From a virus, in the IMG/VR virus record IMGVR_UViG_3300021197_001952, positions 1 to 20,016 of that record: DNA of 20,016 nucleotides. The stretch is one strand, 5' to 3'. The notes under the pieces were generated by a model. It was not told the DNA's origin. It searched no databases and saw nothing but the letters and a program-made list of their open reading frames with translations. Below, piece after piece: positions 11,110-20,016 of the stretch (its first letter is position 1; the number at the start of each line of letters is the position of its first letter). A program made the translations under genes and the position numbers.

Positions 11110-11472
11110 TTACATTTCCATATAAGATTTTAACTCTCTAACCGAAATATGCTTATTTTTTGCTATAAGTTCTAGATGTTCAACCTCTTCTGTTTTATCT
11201 TTCTTTTTTTTCTTTATATAGCTAATACGTTTAAATTGAAGTCTAGGAATTATGTTATAATAAAGACGATACATTCTTTGTTTATCATCAAATATACCAC
11301 AATATTTATTAAGTATATTATTTGCAAATGATACTGTATCTTTACTATACATTGAAAACCACCTATTAAGCAAAAAAGGTACAAATGCTTGCTCTCCTTC
11401 TGAGTCTAAATAATCTGGCTGCTTCCTCTTATCAGAAAAGAATAATTTATTTTGTAGTTGAAAGAAATTCAT
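11110..11472 (-). CDS. 62: Probable clamp-loader A subunit (gp62-like)
   Basis: This 120-residue protein has the pattern seen in phage clamp-loader A subunits: FVPFLLNRWFSMYSKDTVSF (30-49), then ANNILNKY (50-57), then YRLYYNIIPRLQFKRISYIK (68-87) followed by a run of lysines. In related proteins this corresponds to 'PFM(V)NR..S', 'ANEMN' and 'P+++RF.+W.K'. With the large subunit (gp44-like, outside the window) it would load the sliding clamp for replication. It is shorter than T4 gp62 (187). Its ATG overlaps the stop of the exostosin-like gene (ATGA), so it is the last gene of the sugar operon, an odd place for a replication gene. The call rests on a motif pattern only. Confidence 0.55.
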   Translation of the reverse strand: MNFFQLQNKLFFSDKRKQPDYLDSEGEQAFVPFLLNRWFSMYSKDTVSFANNILNKYCGIFDDKQRMYRLYYNIIPRLQFKRISYIKKKKKDKTEEVEHLELIAKNKHISVRELKSYMEM

Positions 11473-12305
11473 AGTTTAGAACATATATATTCAGCAACTG
11501 CTTTAACACTATATCGTGTATTATAGTCACTATCTTGCTGATCCTTAACTAATTGTAACATATCAATATCAGAAAGCAAATCTATAATTACATTACCTGC
11601 ATCATTTACCCAATCATCCACTTGTACAATATAACTATCTTTATATATTTCATTTTGAGGTAATCTAGGAGATACAACAACAGTACCGCTACGTAAACCT
11701 TCATAATGACGGAATGTTTCCATACTTACATTACCCGCTGGGCAAATAACTATTTTTGAGTTATATAAACGTTCTGAATATTTCGCTGGATCAAACCCCA
11801 TATTAAAACCTTTTGTAATATTAATATCCAGCTTAAGGTGTTTATGAGTTTTTTTAATTTCTAAATCAGTAAAGAACTTAATTATAGGATCCATATAATC
11901 CACTCGATTTTGTGATGCCATATGCCCGGAGAAAAATACATCAACCGGCCGTTCTTTAATAGTTCTATTTTTTAATTTACTATGCTTTTTATTATAACCC
12001 AATGGTAGTGGAAAAACATTAACCTCTTCTTGTTCTGGTAGTAAATATGATTTAAATACTAATACATCATCACGATTTTTCCATTCATCTAGAATGCAAT
12101 CTGTCATGTATTCATCATGTACTGCGAGTATAACATTACGGGTTGCCTCACTAAGTACAACTTCATCTCTACGATCCCACTCAGGGGTTACGCTTACAAT
12201 ATGAAGTGTTAGAGCATCAACCTTATCTGTGAGATGTTTAATAATACCTTGCAAGTAGTTCCACTCACAAACGTTATCTTCTACTCCGTAATATTTAACA
12301 ATCAT
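11469..12305 (-). CDS. Exostosin/RXYLT1-like glycosyltransferase
   Basis: This 278-residue protein has the C-terminal signature of the exostosin-like superfamily: VFFSGHM (123-129), then a long gap, then VICPAGNVSMETFRHYEGLR (186-205) and SGTVVVSP (206-213). The conserved Glu of METFRHYEGL is expected to contact the nucleotide-sugar donor. No signal or membrane segment is present, so it acts in the cytoplasm. It probably transfers a sugar from a nucleotide donor to an unknown acceptor. The ATG overlaps the stop of the upstream gene (TAATG), and it is co-transcribed with the GDP-sugar genes, which suggests a linked pathway. Confidence 0.8.
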   Translation of the reverse strand: MIVKYYGVEDNVCEWNYLQGIIKHLTDKVDALTLHIVSVTPEWDRRDEVVLSEATRNVILAVHDEYMTDCILDEWKNRDDVLVFKSYLLPEQEEVNVFPLPLGYNKKHSKLKNRTIKERPVDVFFSGHMASQNRVDYMDPIIKFFTDLEIKKTHKHLKLDINITKGFNMGFDPAKYSERLYNSKIVICPAGNVSMETFRHYEGLRSGTVVVSPRLPQNEIYKDSYIVQVDDWVNDAGNVIIDLLSDIDMLQLVKDQQDSDYNTRYSVKAVAEYICSKL

Positions 12306-12886
12306 TATACAACAATCTTTGTAGTAGCTACAAATTGATCCTTTACTTCTGCATTAAAATAATCAATAACCTCTTGCATAAACGCTTGAGCTTCTTCATC
12401 AGATAATTCAGATGAGAAAGCAAAACCAGGAGCTTTGTGACCTGCGTAAATATTAATTGCCGTATGACCAACAGCAACATTTTCTAAACTATAGGTAATT
12501 GAAACACTCACTTTACCTTCTTTACGTGCTTCTCCATCAGAGCCTACAAAAACCTTTTGCACCATAAGATCATCACCATCCATTTCAATAGGGGCATCAA
12601 TTCGCTTACTTAAAAACTTTGCAATCTCTGTATTAAGAAGTCGTTGAAAGGATACAGCACCTAGAGGTCCTAAATTAGGAATCTCCCAACAGAAGTTAAT
12701 AGCATCTTCTGAAGCAATAAAATCATCGGAAAGAGTATCTTCAAGATCGATAAGATTCTCAGTTACATCCATTGGTGCTCGGAAAGCAACAATATTACCT
12801 ACTGGGGAGACTTCTTTTCGAAATTGTTCATACGCGAAACGCTTATGAATAAAGTCTCCATTATATTTTTCTTGTTTAATAATCAT
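12305..12886 (-). CDS. Conserved unknown protein in the sugar operon
   Basis: This is a 193-residue acidic protein. Notable segments are FRAPMDVTENLIDLEDTL (35-52), NFCWEIPNLGPLGAVSFQRL (64-83), IEMDGDDLMVQK (99-110), VSVSITYSLENVAVGHTAIN (126-145), AGHKAPGF (148-155) and a final FVATTKIVV. This looks like a tightly conserved soluble enzyme or binding protein. I recall similar sequences in T4-like marine phages but can assign no function. It lies between gmd and the exostosin-like gene, 17 bp after gmd. The N-terminal MIIKQEKYNGDF suggests the ATG at 12886 is right. Confidence 0.8.
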   Translation of the reverse strand: MIIKQEKYNGDFIHKRFAYEQFRKEVSPVGNIVAFRAPMDVTENLIDLEDTLSDDFIASEDAINFCWEIPNLGPLGAVSFQRLLNTEIAKFLSKRIDAPIEMDGDDLMVQKVFVGSDGEARKEGKVSVSITYSLENVAVGHTAINIYAGHKAPGFAFSSELSDEEAQAFMQEVIDYFNAEVKDQFVATTKIVV

Positions 12887-12903
12887 TCTTCTACTATTAT
12901 ATT

Positions 12904-13896
12904 CTATAACTTTTTAGTATCAACGTCTTTGTTAAGCTTATTTGCAGCTACAAATATCATTTCATCGAGCATAGTCTCGAATGTGTATGTTGGTTTCCAT
13001 CCAAGCTTAGTTCTTAGCTTAGTAGAGTCACCTTTAAGGTGCTCAAGCTCCTCTGGTCGTTCGAACTGGTGCGCTGTTTTTACAAGCTTAGTATCTACAC
13101 CAAGCACATTAAATGTATAATCTACAAGATTTTGAACTGTATGAGATACTCCAGTAGAGCAAACATAGTTATCAGGATCATCTTGTTGAAGCATCAACCA
13201 CATCGCTTTTACATAATCTTTAGCATGCCCCCAATCGCGGCTTGCTGCCAGGTTACCAAGAACAAGATCTTTCTTACGACCCTGCTTAATATCTACTGCA
13301 CCATTTACGACCTTATTAGTTACAAAGTTCATACCACGTCTTGGTGATTCATGATTGAAAAGAATACCATTACTAATATGCATACCATAACTGTTTTTGT
13401 AGTTATTACAGATGTTGTAAGAAAATACTTTTGCACAGCCATATGGGCTTACAGGATTAAGTTTAGTAGTTTCTCTCTGGAATCCATCTTCATCAATAGT
13501 ATTACCAAACATTTCACTTGAAGAAGCTTGATAAATTCGAGCAGTAGGGCAAGTGAGTCTAATTGCTTCAAGTAGATTCAATGTTCCAAGTCCGGTAGCT
13601 TCAGCTGTATATATTGGAGCATCAAAACTAACACGTACGTGAGACTGCGCAGCTAAGTTATAGATTTCATGAGGGCCTTGAGCTTTCTGCAAGACACTAA
13701 CTAGTGACGACATGTCAGTTAAGTCTGCATAAACGAGCTTAACTCTGTTAAAAATATTATCAATACGAGTGGTATTATACTCCGGGGAAGAGTTGCGGCG
13801 AATAGTTCCCCATACTTCATATCCCTTATCTAGGAGAAGCTCTGCAAGATAAGATCCATCTTGCCCATTAATTCCTGTTATTAGCGCTGTTTTCAT
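12904..13896 (-). CDS. gmd: GDP-mannose 4,6-dehydratase
   Basis: This enzyme converts GDP-D-mannose to GDP-4-keto-6-deoxy-D-mannose. The protein of 330 residues is an extended short-chain dehydrogenase: TGINGQDGSY (7-16) is the NADP-binding glycine motif, SSSEMFG (125-131) contains the catalytic Ser/Glu, and Tyr152 and Lys156 form YxxxK. It is slightly shorter than typical Gmd (about 340-370). The ATG overlaps the stop of the ColD-like gene (ATGA). The order in the operon (reductase, thyX, dehydratase, gmd) supplies all steps from GDP-mannose to a deoxysugar donor. GDP-mannose itself must come from the host, because no manB or manC is present in the window. Confidence 0.94.
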   Translation of the reverse strand: MKTALITGINGQDGSYLAELLLDKGYEVWGTIRRNSSPEYNTTRIDNIFNRVKLVYADLTDMSSLVSVLQKAQGPHEIYNLAAQSHVRVSFDAPIYTAEATGLGTLNLLEAIRLTCPTARIYQASSSEMFGNTIDEDGFQRETTKLNPVSPYGCAKVFSYNICNNYKNSYGMHISNGILFNHESPRRGMNFVTNKVVNGAVDIKQGRKKDLVLGNLAASRDWGHAKDYVKAMWLMLQQDDPDNYVCSTGVSHTVQNLVDYTFNVLGVDTKLVKTAHQFERPEELEHLKGDSTKLRTKLGWKPTYTFETMLDEMIFVAANKLNKDVDTKKL

Positions 13897-15056
13897 CCTT
13901 TAATTAAGTTAACAATATTTCTAACATCCTCTTCCGACATACCTTGATGATTCGGTACATAAAAGCCATATTTATTGATCATAGTTGATATGGGAATGTT
14001 AGTATGACCTGTTCCAAATCTTCGCCACATAGGTGACATAGTCATTGAACCCGCAATAAGCGGTCTACATTCAACTCCATTATCACGAAGACGGTTTACA
14101 ATTTTATCTCTATCATAACTAACAATAGGATAACAAAAGCTTGATACAAAGCAGTCTTCCCTATCGATAATATTCAAAAGACTATCTTCTTTATTAAGAA
14201 GCTCTTGATATAATTTAAAGTTTTTATTACGTGCTGCAGAAAACTTATCTATCTTATCTACTTGACGTAGACCAATGACAGCTTGCAAGTCTGTAGATCT
14301 AACATTTAGTCCCGGTAAATAGAAAGCAAACTGCGCACTAAAATCATCAACTCTATTATTTGATCGTAATATATCTCTACTATTATTATCTAGATCTCTA
14401 TCCCATCCATGGCTACGGATCATAAGAAGTAAGTCGTTAATCTCATCATAACTAGTACAAACCATTCCACCTTCAATAGTAGAGATATGATGACCGTAAT
14501 ACATAGAAAAAAAACTCATAATACCAAACGTACCGAGCTTCTTACCTTTATACTCTGACCCCATACTCTCGCAGACATCCTCAATAAGAAGAACATCATA
14601 AGTATCGCAAAGCTCAACAATTTTATCCATATCAGGTACTAGACCTAAAACAGATACTAGAATAAATGCTGCTGGATTCTGACGTTTGAAAATCCATTCT
14701 AACCGGTCAAGATCTACTGAAAGATCTTGTTCGTTAGCATCAATAAGAATAGGATCTAGACCTAGCATTAGAGGTGAGCTAACATCTGTAGCCCAGCTTA
14801 AATCTGGTATAATTATTTTATTATTCTTAAGCTTACCCCCAAACTTAAGAGCGGCAAGTCCTAAAAGAATAGCAGATGATCCACTATTAACAAATACAGA
14901 ATTCTTTGTACCTAGCCAATTAGAAAACTTTGCTTCATATTCTTTAGTAATTGGACCCTTAGTAAGTTGAGGTATCTCTTTTTGATTAAGCCAGTTAATA
15001 AGGCCAGCTACATCTTCACGATCAATTGTATCTGATACAAGCTTAACAGGTTTCAT
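13893..15056 (-). CDS. colD: GDP-4-keto-6-deoxymannose 3-dehydratase, ColD-like
   Basis: This is a PLP enzyme of the DegT/DnrJ/EryC1/StrS fold, 387 residues from the ATG at 15056 (E. coli ColD: 388). The Schiff-base lysine of sugar aminotransferases is replaced by histidine: His189 in MYYGHHISTIEGG (185-197). This is the hallmark of the ColD and E1 3-dehydratases, which remove the C3 hydroxyl using glutamate. Other ColD-like blocks are LLIEDVCESMG (Asp160), IRSHGWDRDL, GVECRPLIAGS and GFYVPNHQ. I prefer this ATG, 7 nt after the thyX stop, to a TTG at 15101 that would overlap thyX. With gmd and the Fcl/ColC-like gene it predicts GDP-L-colitose synthesis. A CDP-sugar 3-dehydrase is the less likely alternative. 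Confidence 0.82.
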   Translation of the reverse strand: MKPVKLVSDTIDREDVAGLINWLNQKEIPQLTKGPITKEYEAKFSNWLGTKNSVFVNSGSSAILLGLAALKFGGKLKNNKIIIPDLSWATDVSSPLMLGLDPILIDANEQDLSVDLDRLEWIFKRQNPAAFILVSVLGLVPDMDKIVELCDTYDVLLIEDVCESMGSEYKGKKLGTFGIMSFFSMYYGHHISTIEGGMVCTSYDEINDLLLMIRSHGWDRDLDNNSRDILRSNNRVDDFSAQFAFYLPGLNVRSTDLQAVIGLRQVDKIDKFSAARNKNFKLYQELLNKEDSLLNIIDREDCFVSSFCYPIVSYDRDKIVNRLRDNGVECRPLIAGSMTMSPMWRRFGTGHTNIPISTMINKYGFYVPNHQGMSEEDVRNIVNLIKG

Positions 15057-15063
15057 ACCTATA

Positions 15064-15687
15064 TTATAAGGTTTTTTTCCAGATTGCAAGTGTATGTTCA
15101 AAAGGATTACCTTTAATATTCTTAACTAACGTTAGCATATCATCTGCTAATTCTCTAATTTCTTTTTGAGCATGCTCACTATTACGTAACTTTTGAAAGT
15201 TAGCAAAACTTCTCATATTAAAAAGAACATCAGATTGAATTTTACTGTTATACGTCTTGAAAAATCGCGCGCTTTCCTTCGCTCTTTTACGACCTAAAAC
15301 TGGTTCAAGTTCTTTTATAGCTTCATGATATAAAGTATTACCTGCAGCTGTATAAACTTCTAATTGAATCTTCCAATCATCTGGCCAATCATCAGGTATA
15401 AACGTTTTATCCTCTTTTAGCTCTTTGTATCTTGCCGACTCAGCATTGAGCGAAGATAATCTATGCTTAAGTAAATGAATATGACTGGCAATATCACAAT
15501 CAACAAGGAAATGGACGCTACCCTTTTCAAAAGGGGTCTCGTGTCCCTCGGACCAAAGCATGTTGATAAGCTTCGGAATTCTCTTTCGTTTCTTTTCATT
15601 TAAATCTCTACTAGTTGATGTCCATGCACTGCAAGCAATAACTTCATCACTACCATAATATCCTAAAAGTTCTACTGTATTATTCAT
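15064..15687 (-). CDS. thyX: FAD-dependent thymidylate synthase
   Basis: The protein of 207 residues makes dTMP from dUMP with methylenetetrahydrofolate, FAD and NADPH. The ThyX signature RHRxxSxNxxSxR is present as KHRLSSLNAESAR (74-86, Lys for the first Arg). HETPFEKG (49-56) matches the HxxPFEH region, and FNMRSFANFQKLR with QKEIRELADDM fits the conserved C-terminal half. Phages use ThyX to feed DNA synthesis. Here it sits inside the deoxysugar operon: its start overlaps the end of the Fcl/ColC-like gene by 8 bp and the ColD-like gene begins 7 bp after it. No Shine-Dalgarno sequence is seen. Confidence 0.9.
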   Translation of the reverse strand: MNNTVELLGYYGSDEVIACSAWTSTSRDLNEKKRKRIPKLINMLWSEGHETPFEKGSVHFLVDCDIASHIHLLKHRLSSLNAESARYKELKEDKTFIPDDWPDDWKIQLEVYTAAGNTLYHEAIKELEPVLGRKRAKESARFFKTYNSKIQSDVLFNMRSFANFQKLRNSEHAQKEIRELADDMLTLVKNIKGNPFEHTLAIWKKTL

Positions 15688-16600
15688 TTAATACTGAATT
15701 ATAGACTGACTCTATACCATTTGCAAATGGTATAAATTCAAAATCTGGAAATATTTCTCTCATCTTTTTATTACTAGCATCTTTACGTATTTGTCCATCA
15801 GGCATTAGTGTATCAAAGTTCAGAATTAGATCCTTATCTAAAACATCTAGAGCAATTTCTGCCATCTCTCTAATAGAATGGCATTCATCACCAGCAACAT
15901 TAAAGTCTGTCTTAATTATTTTATCTATACCCTGTACTATAATATCAGCAAGATCACTTGCATGTATAAATTGTCTTAACGGGTTACCTGTTCCAAATAA
16001 TTTAAGAACGACCTCGTCATTATCTATACAATTTTGAATCTTTTTAATTAATGCAGTTACAAAATGAGCTTTCTTTTCATTATTAAAATTGTCATATTGG
16101 CTATAAAGATTGCAAGCATATACAGTTGAATAATCTATATCATATTTTTCTCTATATAGCTCGATTTGCGTACCCATTACTCTTTTAGCCATTGCATAAC
16201 CAAAGTTAGTTGGTGTGGGAGGTCCTAAATGTAAGTAATTCTCTTCTAGAGGGTAATAATCCTCTGGTAAGGCGTCCGGGTAAACACAGGTACTTGATAC
16301 TCCAATAAGCTTTTTCACTCCGTATTTATAAGCTTCGTGAATGACATTTGTATTCATTAAGATATTTTGCTCAAGAAACTCAATTGGATAATCTATATTT
16401 TCTTGAATACCACCAACCCTTGCTGCAGCATGAATAACCACATCAGGCATTGTTTCTTCAAACATTTTACGAACTTGAAACTGTGAGGTGAGATCATAAT
16501 CATTCGAACCAACAAATATTCCCTCATGTGTTGTAGTCCAAATTTTATCTTGGATATGACATCCAAGCATACCACGACCTCCAGTAACTAGAACTTTCAT
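15680..16600 (-). CDS. fcl: GDP-L-fucose synthase / GDP-L-colitose synthase-like
   Basis: This 306-residue SDR epimerase/reductase has TGGRGMLG (6-13) for NADP(H), SSTCVYP (102-108) with Cys105, Tyr135 and Lys139 in YAMAK, and His179 in KKAHFVTAL. Cys and His are the acid/base pair for epimerisation in GDP-fucose synthase (Fcl), and ColC belongs to the same family. In a Gmd-only context it would make GDP-L-fucose. With the adjacent ColD-like dehydratase it could instead act as ColC on GDP-4-keto-3,6-dideoxymannose and give GDP-L-colitose. Sequence alone does not separate these. It heads the operon behind a clear sigma70-like promoter. Confidence 0.88.
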   Translation of the reverse strand: MKVLVTGGRGMLGCHIQDKIWTTTHEGIFVGSNDYDLTSQFQVRKMFEETMPDVVIHAAARVGGIQENIDYPIEFLEQNILMNTNVIHEAYKYGVKKLIGVSSTCVYPDALPEDYYPLEENYLHLGPPTPTNFGYAMAKRVMGTQIELYREKYDIDYSTVYACNLYSQYDNFNNEKKAHFVTALIKKIQNCIDNDEVVLKLFGTGNPLRQFIHASDLADIIVQGIDKIIKTDFNVAGDECHSIREMAEIALDVLDKDLILNFDTLMPDGQIRKDASNKKMREIFPDFEFIPFANGIESVYNSVLNE

Positions 16601-16608
16601 CTACATAT

Positions 16609-16636
16609 ATTATAGATGATATTTTAGAATAATCAA
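16609..16636 (-). promoter_or_regulatory. Early sigma70-like promoter of the deoxysugar operon
   Basis: On the minus strand, TTGATT (16631-16636), a 16-bp spacer and consensus TATAAT (16609-16614) are followed by 8 nt and the ATG at 16600. It is the best -10 match of the four early promoters. The -35 lies directly beside the stop codon of the preceding GT10 gene, so it marks a new transcription unit. Confidence 0.8.
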
Positions 16637-17458
16637 CTAGTTTAGTAAGCTTGGAATAGTCAACTCCGCTAACCTATAGTTTTTAGCTAATTCAAAATTA
16701 GATTTAAGTATACCAACTTTTGATTCATAATATTCTGAAGTGCATTGCTTGAGTAACTCTGGAAGTTCCATAATATCATTAAATATAATCATTCCCTCAG
16801 TATCAAAAAAATCTCCTATACTAGGACACCCCCAATAAATGGGAATTGTTCCTGTAACAAAGCAGTCAATTAATTTTTCTGTAAACCAATAGTCGCGTTT
16901 AATATTTTCTATGCAAAAATGATAACGATAGTCTTTTAATCCGTCAATTTTATTATCTAAAGGGTTATACCCCCCACCAAAAACATCAATATTATTACCA
17001 GCCCCTGCTATAATCTGATGTCTTAACTTATGACCCTCATGTTGTTGTTTTCCAGAAGCAATAATAGAAAAGTTTTTAGTTTTTTCGTGTATATCCCAAT
17101 CAAAACTATCTATCCAGCAACCACCAAATGGTAATTTTATTGCGTTAGGAACTTTTTGTAATAGTTCCTTATCGTGCGTCCAAATAGCTTCAAATTTATC
17201 GTAGTGTTTAAGTACGAATCCATATATATGTGGAATATGATCCCATGCTTCTACTAACCATGCAATATTTTTACCTGGTCTATATAAAGCATTAGGTATA
17301 TCAATATCCGTCCATACAACTATATCATGATCAGTAAAACTACCATCACGTACCCACTCGACTTTATCGGTATACTGTTTAGGTGGCATTGGATTGTTTG
17401 AAAAAATACAATGCGCGAAGGCAGAATCTTGTAAATATATTTTTAAAGGAGTGTCCAT
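16637..17458 (-). CDS. GT10 (alpha-1,3-fucosyltransferase-like) glycosyltransferase
   Basis: This protein of 273 residues carries the GT10 fucosyltransferase motif near the C-terminus: FCIENIKRDYWFTEKLIDCF (181-200), then VTGTIPIYWGCPSIGDFF (201-218). It is very like the bacterial FucT block 'CFENS..YVTEK...IPIYWG.P', with Glu184 and the TEK triad in place. An upstream AWLVEAWDH segment (66-74) fits the family N-lobe. Known GT10 enzymes use GDP-L-fucose, and the GDP-deoxysugar operon lies directly downstream; use of GDP-colitose is possible. No membrane anchor is visible. It overlaps the GT11 gene by 16 bp. The acceptor is unknown. Confidence 0.85.
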   Translation of the reverse strand: MDTPLKIYLQDSAFAHCIFSNNPMPPKQYTDKVEWVRDGSFTDHDIVVWTDIDIPNALYRPGKNIAWLVEAWDHIPHIYGFVLKHYDKFEAIWTHDKELLQKVPNAIKLPFGGCWIDSFDWDIHEKTKNFSIIASGKQQHEGHKLRHQIIAGAGNNIDVFGGGYNPLDNKIDGLKDYRYHFCIENIKRDYWFTEKLIDCFVTGTIPIYWGCPSIGDFFDTEGMIIFNDIMELPELLKQCTSEYYESKVGILKSNFELAKNYRLAELTIPSLLN

Positions 17459-18246
17459 CTTTCAGGTATAATATCTTTTGAATCGTAATTATGTGCTGGA
17501 CCAAACCAGTTTTTCGGTGCAACTATAGTTTTATGTTTTAAAGGATCTTGCAATTCACCTAACCAAGCACCCCACCAACCAAAAGATGAATTACAAATTA
17601 TATTGTTTCTACATAGAGACATGTGATAGAGGGCTGAAAAAGGGTTATCCTCCTCTGAATAGTATGTTTTTACATTACCAAACATCTTCCTCGCTGTCGC
17701 TATATCATCAGAGAATATCATATAGTGCTTAGATGATGCTATTTTACTTGCATATGACCAGTAATTAGCTGGTTGCGCAGGGTGAAACTCCCGCTTTTTA
17801 GTATAATCACCAAGTCTAACATGGATTGACGTACAATTATCTGGGTTAGGATATACACCTTCAGTAATTTTACGATCCACTATATGTTTAACTGAATCTT
17901 TAAACTGTAATTGACGCTTTAATTCTGTTGTTGCATCTTCAAAATATTTTTCTGATTGAAAGTAGCCAATCATATCCGTAAAATCATCTACCTTTATATC
18001 AACATATTCAAAAGGAAAATTTACCTCCTTAAAATTAAGGATTCCGGAATCTAGAACAGGTACATCTAAATTAAAACCATCAAATATCGAAAAGTTATTA
18101 CATTCATAATTAACATCATAATAGGTTTCGTTATAAGGTATACAATATTCGATATTTGTCTTCTTTGACATACCAATAACAGCTGCAAACTGAAATAAAG
18201 AGTTGCAAGTATTACCATATCGACCTATCCTCGTTGAAGTTATCAT
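17443..18246 (-). CDS. GT11 (alpha-1,2-fucosyltransferase-like) glycosyltransferase
   Basis: The protein of 267 residues has the GT11 landmarks: an N-terminal GRYGNTCNSLFQFA (8-21, a variant of GGLGNQLFQYA with a 3-residue insertion), SIHVRLGDY (140-148, normally HVRRGDY; Leu145 replaces the second Arg), a YMIFSDD motif (175-181) and NNIICNSSFGWWGAWLG (214-230). Known GT11 enzymes move fucose from GDP-L-fucose to galactose. The changed Arg may alter donor or acceptor use. It is soluble with no signal peptide. It overlaps the GT10 gene and begins one base before the end of the GT7C-like gene (TAATG overlap). Confidence 0.86.
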   Translation of the reverse strand: MITSTRIGRYGNTCNSLFQFAAVIGMSKKTNIEYCIPYNETYYDVNYECNNFSIFDGFNLDVPVLDSGILNFKEVNFPFEYVDIKVDDFTDMIGYFQSEKYFEDATTELKRQLQFKDSVKHIVDRKITEGVYPNPDNCTSIHVRLGDYTKKREFHPAQPANYWSYASKIASSKHYMIFSDDIATARKMFGNVKTYYSEEDNPFSALYHMSLCRNNIICNSSFGWWGAWLGELQDPLKHKTIVAPKNWFGPAHNYDSKDIIPERWTLL

Positions 18247-19022
18247 TATACTAAAATATTTTTATGCCAATCCCACTTATCAATATGCTCTTGTAGTTGC
18301 AATTTATTCATACTCTGAATTTCTAAGCAATAATCTCGGTTAAAATTAATATGAGGATTATGATTGAAAGAAGTATCACCTCTAGCATGCGTAAGGTGCC
18401 ATAAAGGCCATTGCGTACGCATAATTTTTGTTCCTAAAGTTTTAAAACGAGCGTTAATTTCATTATCTTCATAACCAACACTCTTAAAATGCTCATTAGC
18501 TCCTCCACATTTCCAGTAATGTTCCCTATCAAACATAACTACCCCTCCAACAGAGTGGGGATTAAAGAGAATACACTCTTCTAAATTTACATTAGTGAGA
18601 TCTTTAGTCGCATTTATAATATCAAAATATTTCTCCGGAACATCATAAAATTTACCATCATATGGATATACCAATTGAGCCCTACCACTTACGATAGCTT
18701 CAGTCGCGCCAATAATTTGCTGAGGTCTCAATAAAATATCGGCATCATAGTGAGCAATAACAGGAGTAGTTGCTTCTTTTGCCGCAAGGTTAACTCCTCG
18801 CTGCCTATTAAAAAACTCATCGGTTTCAATATAGACATGCCTACATTTAAAAGCCTTACACATATCGTGTAACTTACTTGATGTATCTTGTTCACTAATA
18901 ATAATATTAGCATTAAAGTGATGCCTAAGATAAGATAGAGTCGTTCTAATATTGCGAAGACGGTCTTCATGATCAACTTTAGCTGCAATAAGAAATGTTA
19001 GTTTGTCTTTAAGATCGTGCAT
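18246..19022 (-). CDS. GT-A glycosyltransferase with GT7C (galactosyltransferase-like) domain
   Basis: This is a protein of 258 residues. The first half is a GT-A nucleotide-binding domain with the metal-binding motif HYDADILL (DxD at 93-95). The second half resembles the C-terminal domain of beta-1,4-galactosyltransferases: SVGGVVMFDREHYWKCGGAN (157-176), then EHFKSVGYEDNEINAR (177-192), where the GYEDNE segment provides acceptor-binding and catalytic acidic residues. It may add a Gal- or GalNAc-type sugar that the following fucosyltransferase-like enzymes could decorate; this is inferred from gene order. It overlaps the GT2-like gene by 14 bp. Confidence 0.82.
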   Translation of the reverse strand: MHDLKDKLTFLIAAKVDHEDRLRNIRTTLSYLRHHFNANIIISEQDTSSKLHDMCKAFKCRHVYIETDEFFNRQRGVNLAAKEATTPVIAHYDADILLRPQQIIGATEAIVSGRAQLVYPYDGKFYDVPEKYFDIINATKDLTNVNLEECILFNPHSVGGVVMFDREHYWKCGGANEHFKSVGYEDNEINARFKTLGTKIMRTQWPLWHLTHARGDTSFNHNPHINFNRDYCLEIQSMNKLQLQEHIDKWDWHKNILV

Positions 19023-19797
19023 TATAAATGGTTTTTAAAGTTTTAACTACGTCTTCTACCGGTGTATCAGGAACTTGAACTGGGCTAACACCATGCTTTT
19101 CTTTAAATACCCCGAATGCATCTTGAATATTAGATTGCCAGTCTGATCTAGGTCTAATAGCTGAAGAGTCTTCTGAACATTTTTGCTCTTGTACGAAGTC
19201 TAGGCTGTTAGCAATGTCAGCCCACCACCAATAAGGTGTACTATAATTATTTTTTGCTAACATATATGAATGATCTACATGCTCAAATGCATTTGTATAA
19301 TCTTCATCATATAAACCAACTGCATCTAAAGACTCTTTAGTATAAAAGGTAACAGCCCCTACACAATGTTGGTTGAGAGCTATTTTATGATCACCATAAT
19401 CAATAACTTTACGTGGTACAGGTTTACCATAACTTATACCCGCCTTGTTAGCTGGGCCATGATAAGCAAACATAAAGTGGTGTATACCGGTTTGTTCATA
19501 AGCATCTATATATTCTTTAAATAAATTTCCTGTAAATTTCATATCATCCTCAATAAGAATAATATAATCACAATCTTCACCCATAAGGTGTTTAAGGGCA
19601 GCATTCTTTGCCTTTCCTACACCTTCACCACCTGTTGTCTGGATGTATATACCATCTCTACTATGGTTAGGATGACCCTTCTTACCATCATCCACAACAA
19701 CTAACTCATCATACCAACTCTTATCAATAGACTCTATGCAGATATCATACATATCTGTTCTATCGCAAGTAATAATTCCAACACCTACTTTACCCAT
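19009..19797 (-). CDS. GT2-like glycosyltransferase
   Basis: The protein is 262 residues. The N-terminal VGVGIITCDRTDMYDICIES (4-23), then VVVDDG (33-38), TTGGEGVGKAKNAAL (54-68) and LIEDDMKF (81-88) are the standard GT-A landmarks, with EDD as the metal-binding DxD equivalent. The later AVTFYTKESLDAVGLYDEDY segment fits the acceptor domain. It is the first gene of the four-gene glycosyltransferase unit, driven by a sigma70-like promoter that ends 7 nt before the ATG at 19797. Donor and acceptor cannot be told from sequence. Confidence 0.85.
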   Translation of the reverse strand: MGKVGVGIITCDRTDMYDICIESIDKSWYDELVVVDDGKKGHPNHSRDGIYIQTTGGEGVGKAKNAALKHLMGEDCDYIILIEDDMKFTGNLFKEYIDAYEQTGIHHFMFAYHGPANKAGISYGKPVPRKVIDYGDHKIALNQHCVGAVTFYTKESLDAVGLYDEDYTNAFEHVDHSYMLAKNNYSTPYWWWADIANSLDFVQEQKCSEDSSAIRPRSDWQSNIQDAFGVFKEKHGVSPVQVPDTPVEDVVKTLKTIYNARS

Positions 19798-19804
19798 ACA
19801 TAAT

Positions 19805-19832
19805 ATTTTAATCTAAAGTGTGTTAGAATCAA
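19805..19832 (-). promoter_or_regulatory. Early sigma70-like promoter of the glycosyltransferase operon
   Basis: On the minus strand, TTGATT (19827-19832), a 16-bp spacer and TAAAAT (19805-19810) are followed by 7 nt and the ATG at 19797. The preceding G (GTTGATT), the hexamer spacing and the short distance to the start codon agree with the other three early promoters. Confidence 0.75.
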
Positions 19833-19843
19833 CTGTTATACCC

Positions 19844-19850
19844 ATAAATA
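19844..19850 (+). promoter_or_regulatory. T4-late-like promoter of the right-end gene
   Basis: The plus strand reads CATAAATA, then TTAGC, then the ATG at 19856. It has the same heptamer and the same 5-nt spacer as the structural late genes, and no -35 at the matching place. It therefore separates a late plus-strand unit from the early minus-strand unit that begins 58 bp away. Confidence 0.65.
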
Positions 19851-19855
19851 TTAGC

Positions 19856-20016
19856 ATGCCTTGCGTTGATAATAAAGATCTCATTTATAATGTAAAAGAA
19901 CTACCTGAGACGTTCTCTATTGCTTCTGGTGATTTACTTTTAGTTGAGACAGATGAAGGTACAAACATAATGGATTATGATAATCTAATTATAGGTTTAG
20001 ACAATACTACATTCGG
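19856..20016 (+). CDS. Partial late gene, probable virion protein (5' end only)
   Basis: Only the first 53 codons are in the window. The protein begins MPCVDNKDLIYNVKELPETF and continues with a short segment containing SGDLLLVETDEGTNIMDYDN and IIGLDNTTF. The reading frame is open to the window edge. The phrase 'GD-LLLVE-EG-TNIMDYDN-IIGLDNTTFG' resembles N-termini of short tail- or fibre-associated phage proteins, but I cannot name a family. Placement behind a late-type heptamer suggests a structural protein. It opens a divergent plus-strand unit. Confidence 0.7.
   Translation, partial: MPCVDNKDLIYNVKELPETFSIASGDLLLVETDEGTNIMDYDNLIIGLDNTTF

Follow-up and report, generated by a model that had tools for sequence, protein, structure and literature searches.

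A marine T4-like phage cassette with early-type promoters that probably makes colitose and encodes two fucosyltransferase-type attaching enzymes

The 20,016-nt stretch of DNA analysed here (the window; IMG/VR virus record IMGVR_UViG_3300021197_001952, positions 1-20,016, a virus fragment) carries a group of glycosyltransferase and sugar-nucleotide genes next to a T4-like phage backbone. The genes were compared with Pfam, with solved structures by Foldseek and by sequence matches to the Protein Data Bank (PDB), with GenBank phages and with IMG/VR relatives; related contigs are referred to by L numbers. Four glycosyltransferase open reading frames (ORFs), of GT2, GT7C, GT11 and GT10 type, run on the minus strand from 19797 to 16637. 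As an earlier note on this DNA had described, they form a row of overlapping genes: all four were intact, matched Pfam families and overlapped successively by 14, 1 and 16 nt. A gap of 36 nt separates the GT10 gene from an Fcl-type gene, which is followed on the same strand by genes for ThyX, a DegT-family protein of ColD type, GDP-mannose 4,6-dehydratase (GMD), DUF366 and a weakly exostosin-like protein. The likely donor genes (Fcl-type, ColD-type and GMD) thus directly follow the transferases, as had been proposed.

The first gene of the unit (19009..19797, minus strand) encodes a GT2-family glycosyltransferase of 262 aa, identified by PF00535 (Glycos_transf_2; 1.5e-5) and phrog_2456 (2e-22). 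The second (18246..19022, minus strand) encodes a galactosyltransferase-like protein of GT7C type (258 aa) that matched PF02709 (Glyco_transf_7C; 5.2e-9) and the solved beta-1,4-GalT7 4irp (phmmer, 9e-5). Both the Glyco_transf_7C domain and a GxEDxE-type motif were present, which supports its GT7 membership, with DAD at position 93 and an invariant GYEDNE at position 183. The third protein (267 aa; 17443..18246, minus strand) is alpha1,2-fucosyl/colitosyltransferase-like and matched the GT11 profile PF01531 at 2.7e-13 (50.3 bits, cut-off 23.9), phrog_2644 at 1e-54 and WbgN by BLAST at 5e-15. The top PDB folds for its predicted model (pLDDT 82.8) were POFUT1, NodZ and FUT8, all GDP-fucose enzymes, which places it in the alpha1,2/alpha1,6/protein O-fucosyltransferase superfamily at a TM-score of about 0.5. 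Searching plasmids with a relative of GT11 type as query added nothing. The fourth protein (273 aa; 16637..17458, minus strand) is alpha1,3/4-fucosyltransferase-like, with a match to the GT10 profile PF00852 at 1.6e-5 (25.1 bits, cut-off 23.9) and to the solved alpha1,3-FucT 2nzw at 6e-11. Foldseek with its model (pLDDT 79) returned HpFucT and FUT9 first (2nzx, 1.9e-9; 8d0o, 6.7e-9), indicating a GT-B fold at a TM-score of only about 0.55-0.6. Glu70, which we take to be the catalytic base, and the donor motif CIENIKRDYWFTEKLIDCF (EN...EKL; E184 N185...E194 K195 L196) were invariant in 11 sequences. Pfam matches, conserved residues and predicted folds therefore support both the GT10 and the GT11 identity, and transfer of a GDP-L-sugar is predicted for the two enzymes.

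The GT11 protein contains HVRLGD, in which the second Arg of H[VI]RRGD is replaced, and L, R and I were all found at this position among relatives. The earlier note had read this change as a possible mark of a changed donor. This reading was not supported: WbgN, a colitosyltransferase, has HIRRGD, as does L003, whose ColD is 91% identical, and L055 and L148, in which no ColD was seen, have HIRLGD, so that L and R each occur with and without ColD. A fifth, exostosin-like transferase had also been proposed within the donor operon. The gene is present (11469..12305, minus strand; here EXT), but RXYLT1_C was its sole match and lay below the cut-off (E 0.005; 16.6 bits against 27), and no other exostosin/GT47-like profile was matched. 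EXT is thus kept as a putative glycosyltransferase.

The DegT-family gene (13893..15056, minus strand) encodes 387 aa from an ATG at 15056, a start common to relatives and likelier than the listed TTG at 15101. Its best PDB match was the GDP-4-keto-6-deoxymannose 3-dehydratase ColD (2gms, 2e-59), which scored 204.7 bits, above perosamine synthase (131) and the CDP-type E1 (114.5). The Lys that binds pyridoxal phosphate is replaced by His189 (His204 in the TTG form) in the motif GHHISTIEGG. This residue aligns with ColD His188, the position changed in the solved mutants 3b8x and 2r0t, and the catalytic-site segment reads YYGHHISTIEGG against SHHIATMEGG in E. coli O55 ColD. The catalytic His was found in 48/48 IMG/VR relatives covering the site and, as a positive control, in the E. 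coli O55 colitose cluster, where the gene is likewise linked to GMD and a ColC/Fcl-type reductase. No Fe-S cysteines of E1/RfbH (CxC...C cluster) were found in the protein. An aminotransferase/perosamine pathway was ruled out, as the catalytic Lys is a His, and a CDP-sugar E1/RfbH pathway by the missing Fe-S cysteines together with the GDP-type neighbouring genes.

The Fcl/ColC-type gene (15680..16600, minus strand) encodes a GDP-4-keto-deoxyhexose 3,5-epimerase/4-reductase of 306 aa, which keeps the Ser/Tyr/Lys and the epimerase Cys/His residues and comes closest, among PDB entries, to the human GDP-L-fucose synthase (4b8w, 1.5e-63). GMD (330 aa; 12904..13896, minus strand) matched PF16363 (4.9e-117) and TIGR01472 (4.5e-114) and is 46% identical to E. 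coli gmd; it is not present in L008, L014 and L015. The thymidylate synthase ThyX (15064..15687, minus strand; TIGR02170, 3.5e-28, above cut-off), an ordinary member of its family, is a passenger in the operon and is not at this position in L010, L015, L058, L062 and L063. The set of GMD, ColD-type and Fcl-type genes predicts GDP-L-colitose and not only GDP-fucose, with 3-dehydratase activity predicted for the ColD-type enzyme. Of the fucose- or colitose-type branches put forward in the earlier note, colitose (3-deoxy-fucose) is the better supported, because the DegT-family enzyme is ColD-like, carries the Lys to His change and has no E1-type Fe-S cysteines; the proposed Lewis- or H-type linkages stay presumptive.

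The same gene order was looked for in other contigs and recurs in the marine T4-like lineage: GT2-GT7C-GT11-GT10-Fcl-(ThyX)-ColD-(GMD)-DUF366-EXT in L002, L003, L006, L007, L010, L011, L014 and L016. The GT2-GT7C-GT11-GT10-Fcl-ColD block also recurs, rearranged, in freshwater phages. As the four-gene order is kept in other contigs, it is not due to chance. Scans anchored on DUF366, GT7C and GT10 showed that the region upstream of DUF366 is a variable slot, which held GT10, GT11 and ColD in 11 groups, neither the pair nor ColD in 11, and the pair without ColD in 1. EXT was present if and only if ColD lay upstream: without exception, 20 groups had both genes and 14 had neither. Among 43 viral contig groups with a strong GT10 match, GT11 was found in 42, Fcl in 31 and the ColD type in 30, and 10 had GT10 and GT11 with no donor genes in the DNA stretch covered. 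All of these counts were obtained with profiles from this lineage, on up to ~10 kb of DNA flanking each match and with groups defined by identical DNA, and hence show linkage and not frequency. A second ColD-like form with the same His (GHQLQSVEGG) accompanies GT10 in other, less related phages. In a quick tree with long branches and no bootstrap, the main phage ColDs largely clustered, with a few bacterial rows among them, and the second form fell near Pelagibacter proteins. At 80 bacterial ColD-like loci searched with the same profiles, an Fcl-type gene was nearby in 45, a GMD-type gene in 38 and GT10 in 3, the last count being subject to GT10 profiles that may miss divergent bacterial transferases.

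Sigma70-type (early) promoter-like sites lie on the minus strand before GT2 (19805..19832; TTGATT-N16-TAAAAT), before the donor genes at Fcl (16609..16636; TTGATT-N16-TATAAT) and before DUF366 (12896..12923; TTGATA-N16-TATAAT). The GT2 hexamers are kept in L002, L003, L006, L007, L010 and L011 and the Fcl boxes in L002, L003, L006, L011 and L016, with divergent spacers in both cases; the Fcl boxes are absent in L014. The pattern occurred upstream of DUF366 in 38/59 distinct relatives against 0.6 in shuffles. It was also found before GT2, Fcl, ThyX and ColD, against fewer than 1 expected, and almost never before structural genes. Neither sigma70-like sites over the whole region (42 against 43 in shuffles) nor the T4 late element over the whole window (87 against 79) were enriched, and the promoter argument is therefore carried only by position and conservation. 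The GT2 and Fcl boxes end 7-8 nt 5' of the start. Boxes of the TTGA...TATAAT type upstream of GT2, Fcl, DUF366, the groES-like gene and UvsW end 7-11 nt before the start codon, which implies very short or leaderless transcripts.

On the plus strand, a divergent tail-fibre-like gene that begins MPCVDNKDLIYNVKELPETF runs off the window, which holds its N-terminal part only (19856..20016). A T4-type late promoter element, CATAAATA, lies 5 nt before its ATG (19843..19850, plus strand). This element precedes 13/19 listed fibre-gene starts, several of the other six looking like misassigned starts, and gp21 in 10/13 relatives. The fibre N-terminus (~75 aa) is kept in relatives beside GT2 and the C-terminal domains are exchanged (Gp53-like_C in L010, 7e-17; Gp10_C in L075/L083; others elsewhere). 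Judged by their promoter types, the transferase unit is early and the fibre gene, its divergently oriented neighbour, is late. The description of the transferases as an early unit in the earlier note is supported, because sigma70-type boxes precede GT2, Fcl and DUF366 while the fibre gene has a T4-type late promoter.

The analysis shows domains, active-site residues, gene order, co-occurrence and promoter type, whereas we infer which donor each transferase uses, whether the linkages are Lewis- or H-type, and what the acceptor and the purpose are. We consider the chances to be evenly balanced that this early phage cassette turns host GDP-mannose into GDP-L-colitose and assembles a short oligosaccharide with branches, likeliest on a host surface glycan and directed against reinfection or readsorption. 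GMD would convert host GDP-mannose to GDP-4-keto-6-deoxymannose, the ColD-type enzyme would turn this into its 3-deoxy form, and the Fcl/ColC-type enzyme would yield GDP-L-colitose. The GT2 enzyme may start or extend a chain, to which the GT7C-type enzyme would add Gal or GalNAc. GT11 would cap this residue with alpha1,2-linked colitose (or fucose), and GT10 would put a second colitose or fucose on the adjacent HexNAc as an alpha1,3/4 branch, giving a product similar to the tetrasaccharide Col2-Gal-GlcNAc found in Vibrio cholerae O139 and in Aeromonas trota. The likeliest acceptor would be a host surface glycan, altered early to block reinfection or readsorption. The earlier note had envisaged a dedicated oligosaccharide, made by a Gal-type step and carrying two branches from GDP-L-deoxysugars, and this is supported.

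Several points weigh against this interpretation. The Glyco_transf_7C domain is also found in enzymes that use other UDP-sugar donors and would not by itself fix the donor of the GT7C-type protein. In L055/L056 and L148, which carry GT10 and GT11, donor genes were not seen. The window holds no flippase, polymerase or initiating transferase that would account for a route to the surface. The Fcl-type reductase is about equally distant from O55 ColC (31.6%, 145 bits) and colanic Fcl (29.4%, 136 bits), and the GT11 enzymes WbgN and FUT2 use GDP-colitose and GDP-fucose alike (PMC11987014); fucose or mixed use is therefore possible. Finally, the constant fibre neighbour favours the virion as the site of the glycan.

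The colitose oligosaccharide might thus be placed on a phage structural protein, likeliest the adjacent fibre-like protein, changing its adsorption or shielding it. The fibre-like gene adjoins GT2 in the relatives whose contigs extend to it, freshwater L050 and L133 among them, and does so also in lineages in which the other cassette genes differ, with the fibre C-terminus swapped; moreover, no lipid-linked export genes were found in the window. However, the expression classes differ, being early-type for the transferases and late-type for the fibre, and the adjacency is explicable as backbone synteny. Virion glycosylation is a serious but doubtful alternative, and the host surface is slightly favoured because of the early expression.

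It is unlikely that the cassette makes GDP-L-fucose-based H/Lewis-type glycans, with the ColD-like enzyme otherwise employed or dispensable. GT10 and GT11 are known mainly as fucosyltransferases, the reductase is as near to Fcl as to ColC, and the cyanophage S-SRM01 has GMD and a GDP-L-fucose synthase with no ColD-type match in a 24.7-kb stretch. Against this, ColD with its catalytic His is retained where GMD is lost (L008, L014, L015), and Fcl is accompanied by the His-type ColD in 29 of the 31 GT10 contig groups in which it occurs. Least probable, to the point of being very hard to credit, is that hypermodified phage DNA is the target of the transferases, as it is in T-even phages: 7-deazaguanine-type genes lie just upstream in relatives, early promoters would be compatible and ThyX lies in the operon, but the TAGT match was not significant (E 0.09), ThyX is often not in the operon, and we know of no DNA-acting members of GT10, GT11 or GT7C.

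Colitose synthesis and transfer as proposed here have bacterial counterparts. The E. coli O55:H7 O-antigen cluster has the same donor genes (ColD with the His site, ColC and gmd) and a GT11 enzyme, WbgN, that uses the donor (PMC11987014); WbgN is a characterised alpha1,2-colitosyltransferase that adds colitose to Gal-beta-1,3-GlcNAc (PMC11987014, PMC12723683). This bacterial cluster also has wzx/wzy and mannose-activation genes and no annotated GT10, whereas the phage window has neither export nor mannose-activation genes, and the identity between the two is 34% for ColD and 27% for GT11. Two colitoses on Gal-GlcNAc, the product to be expected from GT7C, GT11 and GT10, occur both in V. cholerae O139 and in A. 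trota (PMC8386440, PMC3210612), but these are chemical structures of bacterial polymers whereas the phage product is predicted from genes. Pelagimyophage host-recognition clusters, which likewise belong to T4-like marine phages, have glycosyltransferases beside tail fibres that were proposed to alter the host O-chain; they differ in that mostly GT8 was reported, 'fucos' and 'GDP' being absent from the paper text (PMC7029224).

Glycan clusters with GT10 and GT11 are present in the Kyanoviridae cyanophages S-SRM01, S-SM2, S-T4, S-SSM7 and ACG-2014f. One region of S-SRM01 has GMD and GDP-L-fucose synthase together with GT10 and two GT11 genes, and ACG-2014f has GMD-Fcl-DegT(GHHMTTIEGG)-GT11 in L279 (KJ019148.1, 9968-11161), where the DegT gene is annotated 'hypothetical protein' or 'aminotransferase' and looks ColD-type. 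No ColD-type match was found in the stretches read of S-SRM01, S-SM2, S-T4 and S-SSM7. Compared with the window, gene order and neighbours differ, the transferases are ~30-35% identical and colitose is not annotated. As GT10, GT11 and GDP-fucose genes occur together in the isolated cyanophage S-SRM01, their combination in one phage region is not new in itself, and its novelty had been overstated. The new part is the colitose step, which is unannotated in public phages; no description of phage-encoded colitose synthesis was found in the literature searched, which left out most subscription papers.

Although glycan genes are frequent in phages, their product can hardly ever be predicted. In this cassette an active-site change allows the donor sugar to be named, and the families of the two capping enzymes include characterised members; as the cassette is also conserved, early and fibre-linked, the predicted product is specific enough for an in vitro test. 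If the prediction is true, phages make a 3,6-dideoxyhexose that is a known component of surface antigens in bacteria, and genes annotated 'aminotransferase' or 'hypothetical protein' in public cyanophages such as ACG-2014f would be corrected. The colitose cassette adjoining a late fibre-like gene suggests that blood-group-like sugar decorations are made by some phages themselves. More tentatively, several aquatic T4-like lineages may hold self-contained colitose cassettes, comprising two distinct ColD-like clades with GT10 and GT11, that put a Lewis-b-like colitose tetrasaccharide on their own tail fibre or on the host surface and are exchanged as units beside fibre genes; such dideoxysugar decoration would be unreported from phages.

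DUF366 (12305..12886, minus strand; PF04017, 3e-19) belongs to an uncharacterised family and is a backbone gene and marker of the lineage, kept whatever glycan cassette adjoins it. It had 348 IMG/VR relatives and no match in 50,697 GenBank phage records. Membership of DUF366 in the glycan pathway was unsupported, the gene being retained where the cassette is a different one. For a tie of DUF366 to 7-deazaguanine metabolism, literature searches brought nothing of use. Apart from the genes described above, the window consists of T4-like backbone genes (GroES-like, UvsW, gp15-like, gp20, gp4-like, gp21, gp22 and gp23), some of them named by sequence recognition only. The best isolated-phage matches of gp20 (portal) and gp23 were to cyanophages and Vibrio phages at only ~30-34% identity; these values, and a phage ColD clade with no close bacterial donor, pointed to no host. 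A GT10 protein 42% identical to that of the window was found in L275 (LR756501.1, a 735-kb uncultured phage); neither GT11 nor donor genes were detected in the 10 kb around it. L007, L011 and L016 have an extra ~4 kb between GMD and DUF366. FolE, QueD, QueE and FolE2 lie ~1.4-5 kb upstream of GT2 in L006 (1-1484), L007 (619-1677) and L002 (2054-2827); these genes are a 7-deazaguanine (preQ0) set, which suggests DNA hypermodification in this phage lineage.

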